Assembly: GCA_020216925.1 (NCBI GenBank)
Contig: JAIWOL010000094.1
Coordinates: 1 to 10,000 of the forward strand
DNA: 10,000 nucleotides
Reading direction: 5' to 3'
Origin: Thiobacillus sp.
GTDB taxonomy: Bacteria > Pseudomonadota > Gammaproteobacteria > Burkholderiales > Thiobacillaceae
A program made the translations under genes and the position numbers. The notes under the pieces were generated by a model that searched no databases, had not been told where the DNA came from, and saw only the letters and a program-made list of their open reading frames with translations. Of the stretch, positions 3,105-8,442 are shown piece by piece (positions within the stretch are counted from its first letter, which is position 1; each line of letters starts with the position of its first letter).

Positions 3105-3170
3105 AGGCCGCTTGTAGCTTTGCTTGCCTGCATCCAGAATGCTCGCATCTGCGTATTTCGGAACAGGCAC

Positions 3171-3737
3171 ATGACGCACAGACTCGACGCGCATACCTGG
3201 CTGGCCGAACACGGCGACTATCTGTTCCGCGTAGCCAGACGGCAACTGCATTCCGACGAACTGGCCGAGGATGCGGTACAGGACACGCTTCTTGCAGCCT
3301 TGTCCGCCCAGCAACGCTATGCAGGTGACGCCAGCCCGCGCACCTGGCTCGTGGGCATACTCAAGCACAAGATCGTCGACATCATCCGGCGGCGCGTGCG
3401 CGAGGTGGAACTACCCCGGGACGAAACAGGCGAAGAAGCCGTCGATGCCCTGTTCAGGCAGGACGGTCATTGGGCCGAACCGCTCCGCGACTGGGGAAAC
3501 CCGCAGACCGAGGCGGAACTGGGGCAACTGCGGCGTGTGCTGGAAGCATGTGCAGACCGCCTCAAACCGGTCATGGCGCAAGTATTCAGCCTGCGGGAAG
3601 CCGGCGGCATGGACACGGAGGAAATTTGTAAGGAACTGGGCATCACCCCGACCAACTGCTGGGTTTTGCTGCATCGCGCACGACTGTTCATGCGGCAGTG
3701 CCTGGAATCGAACGGTTATTCAGGAGCGGGGGCATGA
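3171..3737 (+). CDS. ECF-type (extracytoplasmic function) RNA polymerase sigma factor
   Basis: A 188-residue group-4 sigma factor that would direct RNA polymerase to a small stress regulon. Region 2 lies at about residues 14-75 (DYLFRVARRQL, ELAEDAVQDTLLAAL, then TWLVGILKHKIVDIIRR, the -10 recognition part). Region 4 lies at about 125-180 (VFSLREAGGMDTEEICKELGITP followed by TNCWVLLHRARL, the -35-binding helix-turn-helix). The linker is acidic. The ATG at 3171 gives the normal family length; a longer frame from 3024 would read back through the divergent promoter region. Its stop overlaps the start of the anti-sigma gene (ATGA). Sigma factors of this kind next to DUF692/DUF2063 genes are known from Neisseria (RpoE with MseR) and Haemophilus. 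Autoregulation and control of the downstream peptide operon are inferred. It carries four cysteines (126, 153, 163, 177). Confidence 0.93.
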   Translation: MTHRLDAHTWLAEHGDYLFRVARRQLHSDELAEDAVQDTLLAALSAQQRYAGDASPRTWLVGILKHKIVDIIRRRVREVELPRDETGEEAVDALFRQDGHWAEPLRDWGNPQTEAELGQLRRVLEACADRLKPVMAQVFSLREAGGMDTEEICKELGITPTNCWVLLHRARLFMRQCLESNGYSGAGA

Positions 3738-3988
3738 AATGGGTGACGACGTGCAAGGAAACGACCGAGCTTGCTTCGCGTGCCATGGATGCGCGCTTGT
3801 CCTTCGGCGAGCGGCTGGCGTTACGGATACACCTGGCAATCTGCACCAATTGCTCGCGTTTTGCCCGACAGATAGAAGACATGCGCAAGGCTTTGCGTAT
3901 GGACGCAACAGACGATGCGGGGGCGGGCCTGTCTGAAGCAGCCCGTCAACGCATCGAAACCGAATTGCAGAACAAGCTCGATCGTTGA
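3734..3988 (+). CDS. Short soluble zinc-finger (ZAS/zf-HC2) anti-sigma factor
   Basis: An 84-residue protein expected to hold the upstream ECF sigma factor inactive. It has the H-x3-C-x2-C signature of zinc-containing anti-sigma factors (H33, C37, C40) and an upstream cysteine, C7, in place for a fourth ligand. No membrane segment is present, unlike RseA-type anti-sigmas, so it should act in the cytoplasm, as ChrR- or RsrA-type proteins do, and could release the sigma factor when the cysteines are oxidised or bind another metal (inference). The ATG at 3734 overlaps the sigma stop by four bases and is preceded by AGGAGCGGGGG, which supports coupled, stoichiometric production. A longer frame from 3698 lies inside the sigma gene and is unlikely to be used. 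Confidence 0.88.
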   Translation: MKWVTTCKETTELASRAMDARLSFGERLALRIHLAICTNCSRFARQIEDMRKALRMDATDDAGAGLSEAARQRIETELQNKLDR

Positions 3989-4007
3989 GCCTTTTGCAGG
4001 AAGCCGG

Positions 4008-4033
4008 GTAACCGGTCGATGTAGTTGTTAACC
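4008..4033 (+). promoter_or_regulatory. Candidate promoter/operator of the peptide operon (TAACC direct repeat)
   Basis: The 66-base gap before the peptide gene contains GTAACC (4008-4013) and TTAACC (4028-4033), whose TAACC cores are exactly 20 bases apart, about two helical turns. GTAACC resembles the -35 element reported for some ECF sigma factors that control such operons. No clear matching -10 was found, so it may instead be an operator or chance. Confidence 0.3.
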
Positions 4034-4054
4034 ATCCATTTAGGAGAGAAAACC

Positions 4055-4393
4055 ATGTCCAAAAAATCCCTGATCGCAGCTGCTGTCGGCACCGCTTTTG
4101 TCGCCGGCATGTCCGCCGCACCCATCGCCGCCGCCGAAAATCCCTTCGCACTCTCGGCGCTGTCGTCCGGCTACCAGGTCGCCGACAACCAAAAAGCCAA
4201 GGAAGGCAAGTGTGGCGAAGGCAAGTGCGGCGGCGACAAGGCCAAGGCCAAGGAAGGCAAATGCGGCGAAGGCAAGTGCGGCGGCGACAAGGCCAAGGCC
4301 AAGGAAGGCAAGTGCGGCGAAGGCAAGTGCGGCGCCAAGGCCAAGGCCAAGGAAGGCAAATGCGGCGAAGGCAAGTGCGGCGCCAAGAAATAA
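4055..4393 (+). CDS. hvfA: HvfA/bufferin-like RiPP precursor with eight EGKCG motifs
   Basis: A 112-residue exported peptide precursor. Residues 1-27 form a classical Sec signal peptide (KK, hydrophobic stretch, A25-A26-A27 before E28). A short linker (28-49) precedes a Lys/Gly/Cys-rich core holding eight EGKCG motifs, at 50, 55, 67, 72, 84, 89, 100 and 105, arranged as four pairs. All eight cysteines (53, 58, 70, 75, 87, 92, 103, 108) are in these motifs and there are none elsewhere. In HvfA and bufferins such cysteines are converted by the MNIO enzyme and its partner into copper-binding rings (oxazolone-thioamide or thiooxazole in published cases); the same is inferred here. The start at 4055 has AGGAGA at proper distance. 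The modifying genes follow directly. Proposed role: secreted copper sequestration under metal stress. The chemistry is not proven by sequence. Confidence 0.85.
   Translation: MSKKSLIAAAVGTAFVAGMSAAPIAAAENPFALSALSSGYQVADNQKAKEGKCGEGKCGGDKAKAKEGKCGEGKCGGDKAKAKEGKCGEGKCGAKAKAKEGKCGEGKCGAKK
4202..4390 (+). repeat. In-frame tandem repeat encoding the EGKCG core
   Basis: Four near-identical units begin at 4202, 4253, 4304 and 4352, with periods of 51, 51 and 48 bases; the last unit is cut short by the stop. Each unit encodes a pair of EGKCG motifs; the first three end in a GDKAKAK- or AKAKAK-type spacer and the last in AKK. Differences are nearly all third-base changes (for example TGT for the first cysteine and TGC for the rest), and one codon is missing from the third spacer. 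The units probably arose by recent tandem duplication. Confidence 0.95.
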
Positions 4394-4402
4394 GCTGACG
4401 TC

Positions 4403-5257
4403 ATGACTCCCCGCCCCCCCTCGGGTGCGGGGCTCGGGTTTCGGCGCGAAATGCTGCCTGCGCTGAACACCCGGGTACCCGACGCCATCGGTTTTTTCGA
4501 GCTCGCGCCAGAAAACTGGATCGAGCTTGGCGGTCTGCATGCACGCGATCTGCGCCGCTTCACGGAGCGCCACCCCTTTGTCTGCCACGGCCTGTCGCTC
4601 TCACTTGGCGGCATCACGCCGCTCGACGAACTGCTGCTGGTCAAAATCCGTCAATTCATGGACGCGCACGGCATCGCGCTCTACACCGAACACCTTTCGT
4701 ATTGCTCGGACGACGGCCATCTCTATGACCTGCTGCCGATTCCCTTCACCGAAGACGCGGTGAAATACGTGGCCGCCCGCATCCGTCGCGCACAGGACAT
4801 CCTCGAACGCCGCATCGCCATTGAAAACGCCTCGTACTACACCCCTTCTCCCATTGCGGAGATGGACGAACCCGCGTTCATACGCGCGGTTCTCGAAGAA
4901 GCCGACTGCGATCTGCATCTCGACGTGAACAACGTTTATGTCAACAGCGTCAACCATCGGTATGACCCTGTCGAATTTTTACAGGCGATGCCATCCGAGC
5001 GCATCGTTTACATGCACATGGCCGGGCATTACAACGAGGCCCCCGACCTCATCGTCGACACGCACGGAGCCGACGTGATCGAGCCCGTCTGGTCGCTGCT
5101 CGATGCGGCGTACCGCATTCATGGCGTTGCGCCCACCCTGCTCGAGCGTGATTTCAACATCCCCCCTCTTCATGAACTGGTGCATGAGGTCGAACGCATC
5201 GCCGGCATCCAGCGCCAGCACAGACAAATCGATGAGCCAATCCGTCGCGCGTCCTGA
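4403..5257 (+). CDS. hvfB: MNIO (DUF692) family peptide-modifying oxidase, HvfB/BufB-like
   Basis: A 284-residue TIM-barrel multinuclear non-heme iron-dependent oxidase expected to modify the EGKCG cysteines of the preceding peptide together with the following DUF2063 protein, in the cytoplasm before export. Family phrases in order: GLGFRREM (10-17), FFELAPENW (31-39), [10 protein letters not shown] (61-70), YTEHLSYC (94-101), IENASYY (140-146), [10 protein letters not shown] (173-182), MHMAGHY (204-210), DTHG (219-222) and LLERD (246-250). Probable iron ligands lie among H62, E96/H97, E141, D174/N176, H205/H209, D219/H221 and E248, all present, so the enzyme looks intact. The start lies nine bases after the peptide stop, in the same frame, with no good ribosome site and a GC-rich hairpin just inside the gene, suggesting lower yield than the peptide. 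Confidence 0.92.
4409..4432 (+). promoter_or_regulatory. GC-rich hairpin at the start of the MNIO gene
   Basis: CCCCGC (4409-4414) pairs with GCGGGG (4427-4432), with further C/G pairing possible inside the 12-base loop. It begins four bases after the ATG. It has no T-run, so it is not a standard terminator. It could reduce translation of the enzyme relative to the abundant peptide (inference). Confidence 0.4.
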
Positions 5258-5996
5258 TTTCCAGCGCTACCAGTTGGCCTTTACCGCGCACATCCGCGAC
5301 CCGCAGGCCAACCCGCGCCCGCCCGGCGTGGAAGCGCGTCGCATCAATATCTACAAGGATCTGCTCTACAACAACGTGGAAGGGTTTTTGCTGGCGTGTT
5401 TTCCGGTTCTGCGGCGAACGCTGGGGGCACGCAAATGGACCCGCATGGTGCGCGTGTTCTTTGCCACGCATCGCTGCCACACACCCTATTTCCGGCAAAT
5501 TCCGGATGAATTCATGCAGTTTCTGCAATCCGAATGGACGCCGCCCGACGACTACCCGCCCTGGCTCGTTTCCCTGGCACATTACGAATGGATCGAGCTG
5601 GTGCTGTCCGTTTCAAACCGGGTGCCCGAGCGCACGTTCGATCCGGCCGGCGACCTGTTGACCGGCAAGCCTCTGCTCAATCCTGTTCTCGCCAATCTGC
5701 GCTACGACTGGCCGGTGCACCGTATCGCCCCGCGGCGCAAATTTGCCCCCGCCGAAACCTTCCTGTTGGTTTACCGAGACGCTGACGATTCGGTGCGCTT
5801 CGACGAGATCAATGCCTTCACCGCCCGGCTGCTGGCCCTGCTGGAAGAGGGTTCGAGCACCGGACGTGCCGCGCTCGACACCCTGGCCGCCGAAAGCCGC
5901 CACCCCGACCCGGAATTGATTATCCGTGCCGGTCGCGACTTGCTGGAAGACCTGCGCCGCCGGGGAGCCATCCTCGGCGCCTGCATCGATCAGTGA
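5232..5996 (+). CDS. hvfC: DUF2063 partner protein of the MNIO enzyme, HvfC/BufC-like
   Basis: A 254-residue protein of the DUF2063 family, which works with MNIO enzymes, probably by binding the precursor peptide and presenting it. The N-terminal helical domain shows the family phrases [18 protein letters not shown] (37-54), [10 protein letters not shown] (56-65), [12 protein letters not shown] (76-87), IPDEFMQFL (90-98) and [11 protein letters not shown] (115-125). The C-terminal half (about 160-254) is more variable, containing a short beta-type segment and then a winged-helix-like region (peptide binding inferred from studied homologues). The ATG at 5232 overlaps the MNIO gene by 26 bases, indicating coupled translation. 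Its stop overlaps the convergent copper-chaperone gene by seven bases. No DoxX-type membrane gene follows on this strand, although many related operons have one. Confidence 0.9.
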
Positions 5997-6442
5997 TGAT
6001 GGCCGTGCGGCATCCCTCCCGTGCCAGGCGCACGGGCCGTTGCCTTGATGTCCACCGTCTGCCGCTTGCCCCCCGATTCGATGGTGAGGGTCAGCGGCAC
6101 GCTCTCGCCCGCCACGATAGGCTGCTTCAGGTTCATCAGCATGATGTGATATCCGCCCGGCTCCAGGCTGACCGGCTTGCCCTTGGGCAGGTCGATGAAC
6201 TTGATTTCACGCATGCGCATCACATCGCCGTCCATCTTCATCTCATGGATTTCGACGCGCGAGATGGCAGCACTGGTCACGCCGACCAGTTTTGCATCGG
6301 TGTCTGAGCGGATTTTCATGTAGGCACCGCTGACCTTCTGCCCCGCAACGGTGGCCCGCACCCAGGCATCGGTCACACGCACCTCGGCAGCCTGAGCCAA
6401 CGCACTCGCGAACAGCGCAGCAATGAGCAAGGGGATCTTCAT
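5990..6442 (-). CDS. PCu(A)C-type periplasmic copper(I) chaperone
   Basis: A 150-residue exported protein of the PCuAC (DUF461) family, which delivers Cu(I) to the CuA or CuB site of cytochrome oxidase. Signal peptide at residues 1-19 (MKIPLL..., cleavage near AQAA-EV). The copper motif is complete and exactly spaced: H66, then M77 (x10), then H99 (x21), then M101 (H-x-M), with M68 and M75 nearby. The tail MPHGHHH adds a His-rich site that could bind Cu(II), as in several homologues. The start at 6442 has GGAG upstream. A very long upstream extension of this frame overlaps the sensor kinase antisense and is not real. The gene converges on the DUF2063 gene with a seven-base overlap and is divergent from the RegB-like kinase. 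Its presence beside the peptide operon supports a copper theme. Confidence 0.93.
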   Translation of the reverse strand: MKIPLLIAALFASALAQAAEVRVTDAWVRATVAGQKVSGAYMKIRSDTDAKLVGVTSAAISRVEIHEMKMDGDVMRMREIKFIDLPKGKPVSLEPGGYHIMLMNLKQPIVAGESVPLTLTIESGGKRQTVDIKATARAPGTGGMPHGHHH

Positions 6443-6478
6443 GAAAACTCCGGAATAGGGTGTCTGCGACATTGTCAC

Positions 6479-6506
6479 ACGAACAGAGCGTCCTGCACCT
6501 GTTCGT
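6479..6506. promoter_or_regulatory. Inverted repeat in the divergent intergenic region (possible operator)
   Basis: ACGAACAG (6479-6486) and CTGTTCGT (6499-6506) form a perfect 8-base inverted repeat around a 12-base spacer, 37 bases upstream of the copper-chaperone start. Half-site centres are 20 bases apart, which suits a dimeric regulator. The regulator is unknown; no clear -35/-10 pair was found for either flanking gene. Confidence 0.4.
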
Positions 6507-6658
6507 CTCTTGCACAAAAACCCCGCATCGCGCGGATATATGGCGGCAAGCAAGGCAGGTGTAGCGCCCTGCCACTCTAGTCGCCGCGCACCCGCCTCAC
6601 AATGAGACAAATTGCCGCAGCCGCAGCAGGGACGAGGCGGCGCATTACAATCCCGCCC

Positions 6659-7912
6659 ATGCCGCCTTCCGACGCCACGCTGCTGTCCACCCTGCCTGCC
6701 CGCGCCCTGCTGGGACGGCTGGTGCTGGTCCGCCTCGCGCTGATTGCCGGATGGACGGCCGGCATAATCTGGCTGCACTGGGGGCTGGGTATCGTGCTGC
6801 CGCTGGCGCCGATGGCGTCGGTGCTGGCCCTGATGCTGCTGTTTTCGCTCAGCACGGCGTGGCGATTGACCAGGCCGGCCCCGGCCACCCAGCTGGAGTT
6901 TCTGGCGCACCTTCTGGCGGATCTCACCGCCTTCGCCGTGCTGGTGTTTTTCAGTGGCGGGGCGACCAATCCCTTCGTCTCGCTGATGCTGGTCCCCGTC
7001 GTGATCGCGGCCGTCAGCCTGCGGCCGCGCTGGGTCTGGCTGCTCGCCGCCGTGGCCGGCGGCTTTTACGCGCTGCTGCTGTTCGTCTACCAGCCCCTGG
7101 CCATCGCCGACCCCATCGCCGCCTACGGCATGCATCTCGGCGGCATGTGGTTCAATTTTCTTGTCAGCGCCGCGCTCATCGCTTTCTTCGTCACCCGCAT
7201 GCACGCCGCCCTGCGATCGCGCGACCGCGCGCTCGCCGGCCTGCGCGAGAAGCAACTGCGCGACGAGCGCATTCTTGCCCTGGGCACGCAGGCCGCGCTG
7301 GCGGCCCACGAGCTCGCCACGCCGCTCGCCGCTATCCAGACCACCGCGCACGAACTTGCCGCCGAATTCGCCAACGACCCCGAAATCGGCGATGCCTGCC
7401 GCTTGCTTGAACGCCAGGCCCGGGTCTGCAAACGCATTCTCACCGAGCTTGCCGACCGCGCCGGGGAAACACGTCCGGCCACACTGCCGCTCGATGTCTG
7501 GCTCAACCGGCTGCTCGAACGCTGGCAGATCCTGCGGCCCAGCGCCCGCATCGAATCGGTTCTGCCTGCCGACAGCCGGCCCTTCGCCGCGCCGGACGGC
7601 CTCGAACCGGCCGTTCTCAACATCCTCAACAATGCAGCGGATGCCGCCGCCACGCCGGTCGAATTTCAGGCCTGTGCGGACGAACAGGCTCTCCTGCTCG
7701 ATATAGCCGACCGCGGCGCAGGCTTCACGCCGAACCAGCGGGCACAGGCCGGACGGGTCCTGATGCCCAGCCCCGGCGGTCGCGGCTGGGGTGTCGGGCT
7801 GGCGCTCACGCATGCCACGCTGGAACGCGCAGGCGGCCGCATCGAAGTGACAGAACGGGCGGGGGGCGGCACCCGTGTCCGGATTGTCGTCCCCTGGGGA
7901 ACCCCGGTATGA
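6659..7912 (+). CDS. regB: RegB/PrrB/ActS-like redox-sensing histidine kinase
   Basis: A 417-residue inner-membrane sensor kinase. About six hydrophobic segments fill residues 18-180. Between them lies GGATNPF (100-106), matching the conserved GGxxNPF quinone-sensing motif of RegB. The dimerisation domain has the phosphorylated histidine H217 in HELATPL, and the redox-active cysteine of the family is present as C257 (QARVCKRIL). The ATPase part shows the N box LNILNNAADA (320-329), G1 DRGAGF (351-356) and G2 GRGWGVGLAL (374-383). RegB normally reports quinone or oxygen status and phosphorylates RegA to control respiration and energy genes. The ATG at 6659 gives normal length; an in-frame ATG at 6602 is possible but adds an unmotivated Ala/Arg-rich stretch. 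It overlaps the regulator gene by four bases. Confidence 0.92.
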   Translation: MPPSDATLLSTLPARALLGRLVLVRLALIAGWTAGIIWLHWGLGIVLPLAPMASVLALMLLFSLSTAWRLTRPAPATQLEFLAHLLADLTAFAVLVFFSGGATNPFVSLMLVPVVIAAVSLRPRWVWLLAAVAGGFYALLLFVYQPLAIADPIAAYGMHLGGMWFNFLVSAALIAFFVTRMHAALRSRDRALAGLREKQLRDERILALGTQAALAAHELATPLAAIQTTAHELAAEFANDPEIGDACRLLERQARVCKRILTELADRAGETRPATLPLDVWLNRLLERWQILRPSARIESVLPADSRPFAAPDGLEPAVLNILNNAADAAATPVEFQACADEQALLLDIADRGAGFTPNQRAQAGRVLMPSPGGRGWGVGLALTHATLERAGGRIEVTERAGGGTRVRIVVPWGTPV

Positions 7913-8442
7913 ACATGAAGCTCCTGATCGTCGAAGACGACACCGACTTTGCCCAAGCCCTGGCCCGGGCCCTGTCCCGGCGCAATATCGACACGGCACA
8001 CGCAGGCGATGCCATCGCCGCCCGCCAGGCTGCAGACAGGTTTCAGCCCACGCACGCCGTAGTCGACCTCAAACTACCCGGTGACTCCGGACTCAGGGTG
8101 GTCGCCGATCTCGCTGCACGCCGGCCCGCGCCGGCCATCGTCGTGCTGACCGGCTACGCCAGCATTACCACCGCCGTGGAGGCGGTGCGCCTGGGCGCAC
8201 GTCATTACCTGCCCAAGCCTGCCAACGCCGACGAAATCCTGGCCGCCCTCACCCGCGACACGCCGGACGCGGCGCTCGATATTGCACCCGAACCCCTGTC
8301 CGTGGCGCGGCTGGAATGGGAACACATCCAGAAAGTCCTCGCCGAACACGACGGCAACATTTCCGCCACCGCCCGCGCCCTGAAAATGCACCGGCGCACC
8401 CTGCAACGCAAGCTCGACAAGCATCCGCCCAAACCCACCTGA
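7909..8442 (+). CDS. regA: RegA/PrrA/ActR-like response regulator with Fis-type DNA-binding domain
   Basis: A 177-residue partner of the preceding kinase. The receiver domain (about 3-118) has the acidic pocket D10/D11, phospho-acceptor D53 in VVDLKLPGDSGL, switch T81 and K103 in YLPKP. After a short linker the C-terminal helix-turn-helix (about 137-170; phrases WEHIQKVLAEHDGNIS, ATARALKMHRRTLQRKL) is the highly conserved Fis-type domain of the RegA group. The start ATG overlaps the kinase stop (ATGA), so translation is probably coupled; a second ATG two codons later is an alternative. It likely controls respiratory and redox genes. Direct control of the neighbouring copper genes is untested. 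Confidence 0.94.
   Translation: MNMKLLIVEDDTDFAQALARALSRRNIDTAHAGDAIAARQAADRFQPTHAVVDLKLPGDSGLRVVADLAARRPAPAIVVLTGYASITTAVEAVRLGARHYLPKPANADEILAALTRDTPDAALDIAPEPLSVARLEWEHIQKVLAEHDGNISATARALKMHRRTLQRKLDKHPPKPT

Follow-up and report, generated by a model that had tools for sequence, protein, structure and literature searches.

Within the window, the 10,000-nucleotide stretch of Thiobacillus sp. DNA analyzed here (contig 86 of a 2.04 Mb assembly that is 84.6% complete), five tightly packed plus-strand genes (3171-5996) constitute, with a probability of about 0.87, an HvfABC-type (captophorin/oxazolin; EGKCG) biosynthetic cluster with its own sigma/anti-sigma switch. By analogy with characterized relatives, the product is very probably an exported copper-binding peptide with modified cysteines, expressed under a stress switch of its own. 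The identities of the genes, their family membership and the linkage of the sigma pair to the enzyme across the genus were observed directly. Genes, strands and coordinates agree with the initial annotation of this stretch, and the order is as follows:

3171..3737, plus strand: extracytoplasmic function (ECF) sigma factor, 188 aa (PF04542, PF08281; TIGR02943 189.4 bits, cut-off 162.2)
3734..3988, plus strand: small zinc-type anti-sigma (ZAS), 84 aa, with C7/H33/C37/C40 (PF13490; NF052368 68.5 bits, cut-off 50)
4055..4393, plus strand: HvfA-type precursor, 112 aa, eight Cys, eight EGKCG (NF050137 103.7 bits, cut-off 19.5; NF050188 98.6 bits, cut-off 95)
4403..5257, plus strand: HvfB-type MNIO enzyme, 284 aa (PF05114 339.8 bits; NF003818 428 bits, cut-off 360; PDB 3bww E 2.9e-78)
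5232..5996, plus strand: HvfC-type partner (DUF2063 plus NGO1945_C), 254 aa (PF09836, PF22106; NF050145 288.6 bits, cut-off 142; PDB 3dee E 2.3e-18)

The sigma and anti-sigma reading frames overlap at ATGA (3734-3737), and a gap of 66 nt, with a plausible ribosome-binding site (AGGAG), separates the anti-sigma from the precursor ATG. The MNIO gene follows the precursor after 9 nt and overlaps the partner gene by 26 nt.

Pfam and NCBIfam matches of the cassette proteins were far above chance. The curated HvfA, HvfB and HvfC models all exceeded their cut-offs for precursor, MNIO and partner, respectively, whereas the bufferin maturase model BufB (NF050167) scored the MNIO at 251.7 bits, under its cut-off of 310; we therefore assign the locus to the HvfABC/captophorin class (EGKCG, 5-thiooxazole). 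These profile searches, proposed with the initial annotation as a check, place the enzyme inside the MNIO family and the partner in DUF2063, and the precursor matches an HvfA profile. The earlier description of an eight-cysteine precursor followed by DUF692 and DUF2063 genes, belonging to a recognized HvfABC class of ribosomally synthesized and post-translationally modified peptides (RiPPs), is thus upheld. By sequence, the enzyme and partner match 3bww and 3dee, structures named as an MNIO and a partner in PMC13097082. No relative of solved structure was found by sequence for the anti-sigma, two rows at E 0.55 and 0.97 being taken as chance.

Residue patterns in the enzyme point the same way. 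According to PMC13097082, MNIO enzymes of the Lys-Cys class have two arginines and an Asp-Phe pair, and the window enzyme carries R14-R15 and D250-F251, matched by motif to the FonB residues described there. Both patterns were present in 25 of the 26 MNIOs in our tree set (24 genus loci, L026 and L028), the miss being L025, which is cut by a contig end. In three distant homologues (L029-L031; 41-45% identity), RT/RP and ERDD stand in place of Arg-Arg and Asp-Phe. We also surveyed the best 80 of 577 loci from a scan of genome contigs, ranked by identity and queried with window proteins only, so that distant regulators may be missed. Among these, 71 fit both residue patterns as scripted and nine do not, a partner-gene match was found in all 80, and a precursor was detected by script criteria in 65 and not in 15.

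Precursor Peptide and Its Probable Fate

Three features of the precursor bear on how it may be processed:

4055..4135, plus strand: Sec-type signal peptide, residues 1-27, ending in AAA with ENP following (judged by eye from the sequence)
4139..4183, plus strand: conserved segment NPFALSALSSGYQVA directly after the predicted cleavage site, a candidate recognition element
4202..4381, plus strand: EGKCG array, four EGKCG pairs spaced 17, 17 and 16 residues apart

All eight cysteines (residues 50, 55, 67, 72, 84, 89, 100 and 105) lie inside EGKCG motifs, and the underlying DNA is a 51-bp tandem repeat of 3.7 copies with 94% matches. Two kinds of EGKCG precursor are described in PMC12452194, one with 17-residue repeats bearing two EGKCG each and one with EF hands. 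Given that the twin-EGKCG repeat is published, and that 7362 of 7995 scored database proteins match the window precursor (120 listed), the core is not unusual, contrary to the initial annotation.

Upstream of the array, P30, F31, G39, Y40 and A43 were unchanged in 34 aligned precursors (a sample picked by likeness to the window precursor), and the pattern F.{2,4}L..GY occurred in 57 of 66 precursors (from 65 named loci). The segment NPFA..L..GYQVA, after the predicted signal, is common to repeat-type and EF-hand-type precursors. HvfA lacking its signal peptide is modified poorly, so that the signal serves as a leader (PMC13419390); we infer that the NPFA..L..GYQVA segment belongs to this leader.

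A five-step scheme can be proposed from these features and from related systems. Under stress in the cytoplasm, probably an excess of metal or the oxidation of thiols, the ZAS protein would release the ECF sigma factor, which would then transcribe its own operon, possibly from a promoter-like block conserved in the genus. By likeness to relatives, the HvfC-like partner would bind the cytoplasmic precursor via its signal peptide, perhaps together with NPFA..L..GYQVA. The MNIO may then convert each EGKCG cysteine to 5-thiooxazole (-4 Da each, up to eight per peptide), as suggested by fontiphorin, oxazolin and gonophorin, which carry this group (PMC13097082). After Sec export and signal cleavage, the peptide would sequester copper in the periplasm or outside the cell.

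Copper binding and cysteine modification of the window peptide are thus attributed by analogy, and it is conceivable, if rather unlikely, that the peptide handles a metal other than copper or acts more generally as a thiol/oxidant buffer. Related sigma systems respond to hypochlorite and have methionine sulfoxide reductase under their control (PMC7907618), and the metal specificity of such peptides is termed unresolved in PMC13097082. However, gonophorin, an EGKCG-type product, was found copper-bound (PMC13097082), and oxazolin is described as copper-binding (PMC13419390), both of which favor copper.

The Cassette Across the Genus

We searched 36 genomes of the genus, the window's own included, for sigma orthologues (at least 80% identity) and MNIO orthologues (at least 77%, including partial or split contig-end matches in G018, G019 and G032). 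Both were found in 24 genomes, the MNIO only in two (G030 and G035), the sigma factor only in one (G020) and neither in nine. The co-occurrence is significant (Fisher p 5.5e-6), a value uncorrected for relatedness and obtained with several incomplete assemblies. As the five-gene block recurs through the genus, the neighborhood is not unusual either, and here too the initial annotation did not hold.

To the left of the set lie argB (named from its own sequence) and hsp20; to the right is a convergent gene at the cassette edge, followed by a histidine kinase/response regulator pair:

5990..6442, minus strand: PCu(A)C copper chaperone (PF04314 133.4 bits)

In eight of the nine genomes lacking both orthologues, argB and PCu(A)C adjoin each other. 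Their matched stretches lie 81-273 bp apart in seven empty-site genomes, with no cassette or hsp20 detected between them, and 668 bp apart with hsp20 between in G013; no PCu(A)C match was found in G022, the ninth. Since argB and PCu(A)C remain neighbors in these eight genomes, the sigma/ZAS/HvfABC set appears, from gene order, to behave as a cassette that was either acquired or lost at a single site. For the same reason, adjacency to PCu(A)C is no proof of a common function, and the chaperone was rejected as a component. It is present in 22 of 25 fetched genus loci; of the other three, L023 and L025 are short contig-end stretches, and L005 lacks it within the region retrieved. In the wider survey it lies within 3 kb in four of the best 80 of 577 loci.

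The 25 genus loci comprise 15 with repeat-type precursors, seven with the EF-hand type, one with both in tandem (L025), one with none found (L009) and one fragment (L027), as assigned by eye; L027 is a fragment in that script and a partial match in a separate search. The best trees, from the MNIO and from the MNIO plus partner, each need five changes of precursor type. Few of their branches are well supported, and the well-supported ones force only one change. The type label was neither clearly clustered nor scattered relative to shuffles, and a tree constrained to keep the seven EF-hand rows as one group was not rejected (approximately unbiased test, AU p 0.188). Repeated switching between repeat and EF-hand precursors is suggested by these sequence comparisons. 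In L025 (G032:C77), the repeat-type and EF-hand-type precursors stand in tandem before one MNIO, at about 484-1490 on the MNIO strand, a possible intermediate for such switching.

A broader picture can be offered tentatively, at somewhat less than even confidence. The cassette would be gained or lost between argB and pcuC, and one orthologous HvfBC pair would serve two interchangeable kinds of precursor, bare EGKCG arrays and EF-hand fusions, through the shared signal peptide and NPFA..L..GYQVA. Exchange of the metal-binding body with the docking segment kept would then be a normal course of evolution.

Several individual loci vary from the common arrangement. L009/L034 (G003:C218) has the sigma factor, anti-sigma, MNIO and partner, and a precursor was not found between anti-sigma and MNIO. 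L033 (Thiobacillus sp. 0-1251; 3296-6852) carries the sigma/anti-sigma/precursor set twice in a row ahead of a single MNIO, with the second sigma gene shortened, and G016, which matches it, has a further MNIO and sigma orthologue on contig 15. L042 (JAIBEL010000046.1), titled Rhizobium sp., is the same locus as G005 with the Thiobacillus arrangement and is probably mislabelled. In the window itself, the histidine kinase and response regulator (6602-8442) resemble RegB/RegA and score well under the curated cut-offs (193 vs 350 and 173 vs 250 bits).

The Probable Sigma/Anti-Sigma Switch

The window anti-sigma shows the pattern C7-x25-H33-x3-C37-x2-C40, and it belongs to the ZAS group by its H-x3-C-x2-C motif with an N-terminal Cys 26 residues ahead of the His. 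Of 24 genus loci, 23 preserve this spacing; only L012, which has decayed, departs from it. It equals the spacing given for MseR (C4/H30/C34/C37) and RsrA in PMC2893595.

There are direct precedents for clusters of this kind being under sigma control. In Neisseria meningitidis, sigma-E and MseR are co-transcribed with NMB2140-2143 and the sigma operon is autoregulated (PMC2893595); the gonococcal counterpart of NMB2140-2143 includes NGO1945, the DUF2063/RiPP recognition element partner of PDB 3dee (PMC12452194; PMC13097082). The RpoE2 sigma factor of Haemophilus influenzae governs a doxX operon that includes COG3767, COG3220 and DUF2063 genes (PMC7907618), which we equate with hvf. The Neisseria-like sigma/anti-sigma pair noted in the initial annotation is upheld.

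Two candidate regulatory elements were located:

3105..3142, plus strand: promoter-like block, a diverged copy of a genus-wide block with core CTGC[CA]TCTAAAGTGC, ending 28 nt before the sigma ATG
4003..4016, plus strand: small hairpin in the anti-sigma/precursor gap (weak evidence)

The core TCTAAAGTGC stands upstream of the sigma gene with zero or one mismatch in 18 of the 21 genus loci with an intact sigma start; the others have two (L021), three (window) and four (L011) mismatches. TCTAA in this block recalls the Neisseria sigma-E -10 consensus CGTCTAAH given in PMC2893595, the -35 part being without a clear match. A longer pattern searched in 23 genus and 14 other genomes occurred in 11 of the 37, at one site each and always upstream of a sigma orthologue (reversed-pattern control, 0). 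It caught 11 of 15 sigma-bearing genomes, the window's own being among the four missed; no further targets beyond sigma genes were found in the 37 genomes, where a pattern with this catch rate may miss sites. A shorter, looser pattern was uninformative in the window's own genome (18 matches vs 6 in the control).

The hairpin was considered as an attenuator and set aside as a lead only. Its cells are 87% paired over 18 of 25 genus loci (seven left out), with modest covariation that 29 of 500 shuffles equal or exceed, yet the predicted fold of the window stretch is no more favorable than that of shuffled sequences (z -0.20). An Rfam search of the window gave no match at the gathering threshold.

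In the wider survey, a sigma match lies within 3 kb in 23 of 80 loci and both sigma and anti-sigma in 20; ten of the 80 have at most 1500 bases upstream. The sigma gene is upstream on the same strand in 13 of these 20, on the opposite strand in five and otherwise placed in two. The local sigma/ZAS pair is therefore a minority arrangement in this identity-ranked sample. Four loci (L066, L073, L098 and L103), three of them titled Dechloromonas, show a divergent layout, with a sigma-like gene on the opposite strand and an anti-sigma-like ORF preceding the precursor on the MNIO strand.

Several observations weigh against an HvfABC-type cluster with its own switch. The tie between sigma and enzyme is not absolute, as the 20 of 80 loci show. 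G030 and G035 keep the enzyme without an intact sigma factor, and G020 keeps the sigma pair without the enzyme at the site. The window's own promoter-like copy differs at three positions of the 10-nt core. Meningococcal MseR gave no response to the oxidants tried (PMC2893595). A scan of nine window proteins gave no DoxX, and the genome's one DoxX match sits on another contig. The HvfA model NF050188 was passed narrowly. AlphaFold2 predicted the EGKCG array (34 sequences) to be disordered (mean pLDDT 42.9, pTM 0.12). A beta-helix, as reported for another EGKCG member (PMC12452194), was not reproduced in this model, which was built from a shallow alignment with metal and modifications absent.

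Some of these facts would also suit a sigma/anti-sigma pair that lies upstream by chance and regulates something else, such as hsp20 or PCu(A)C. In G020, argB is followed by hsp20, sigma, anti-sigma and PCu(A)C without intervening RiPP genes, G030 retains the RiPP genes with no sigma or anti-sigma remnant found, and 57 of the 80 wider loci lack a sigma match within 3 kb. We nevertheless consider chance placement improbable: sigma and MNIO are found together in two thirds of the genus genomes (24/36), on one strand and tightly spaced; PCu(A)C is present in 11 of 12 genus genomes lacking sigma, MNIO or both; and there are the Neisseria and Haemophilus precedents (PMC2893595; PMC7907618). In G035 only short sigma and anti-sigma remnants are left, and both G030 and G035 have an EF-hand precursor. 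The G035 locus (L012/L158; G035:C4) shows the decayed pair beside an intact-looking EF-hand precursor, MNIO and partner.

Relation to Known Systems

The initial annotation had proposed a system of either HvfABC or bufferin type, Caulobacter being a bufferin host; the first part stands and the second, for bufferins proper, does not. That the system is a bufferin proper (DUF2282/Buf1 or Buf2) is highly improbable: despite the shared enzyme superfamily and partner type, the BufB score, the Sec signal (predicted by eye in the window) and copper context of bufferins proper, and the sigma genes of some Buf1 clusters (PMC12452194), BufB falls below its cut-off and HvfB above its own, the MNIO has the Lys-Cys-class Arg-Arg and Asp-Phe, the precursor is an EGKCG array without a match in the Pfam scan (DUF2282 included), and bufferins are described with DUF2282 or 6/12-Cys precursors and NrsF-type anti-sigma proteins (PMC12452194). 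The bufferin authors themselves label the EGKCG group "Buf_EGKCG/oxazolin" (PMC12452194). A methanobactin system was rejected, the MbnB-type model TIGR04159 giving only 36.9 bits (cut-off 325).

The HvfABC/oxazolin system of H. influenzae shares with the window the three core genes by curated model and a precursor with paired EGKCG motifs and, in the window, a predicted signal peptide (PMC13419390; PMC7907618), and the doxX operon of like gene content is under an ECF sigma factor with a small cytoplasmic anti-sigma (PMC7907618). The window precursor differs in having eight EGKCG rather than six, its sigma pair adjoins the RiPP genes rather than msrAB, and no DoxX gene was found in the window cluster. 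In Neisseria (NMB2140-NMB2145/NGO1943-1948; gonophorin), as in the window, the sigma factor, a ZAS protein with identical Cys/His spacing and the MNIO-partner genes occur together (PMC2893595; PMC13097082); by gene numbers in PMC2893595, that operon begins with DoxX and ends with the sigma pair, whereas in the window the sigma pair comes first. Fontiphorin of Fontimonas thermophila likewise has an EGKCG precursor, an MNIO with Arg-Arg/Asp-Phe and a partner protein, with seven modification sites as compared to the eight EGKCG here (PMC13097082).

The window system is thus a clear but unexceptional representative of a family known from other bacteria. The main texts of the MNIO-enzyme papers listed in a search that included Thiobacillus name no Thiobacillus, and their supplements, outside this search, may well list such loci. 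Two small points are added here, namely how the cassette behaves at genus level and that the two precursor types co-exist. The cassette places copper-associated thiooxazole peptides, a class defined only recently, in the sulfur-oxidizing genus Thiobacillus. The genus also offers a natural comparative series: genomes with the full cassette, with the cassette lacking sigma, with sigma lacking the cassette, and with an empty site. With this series, the target of the sigma factor and the docking segment of the precursor can readily be tested.

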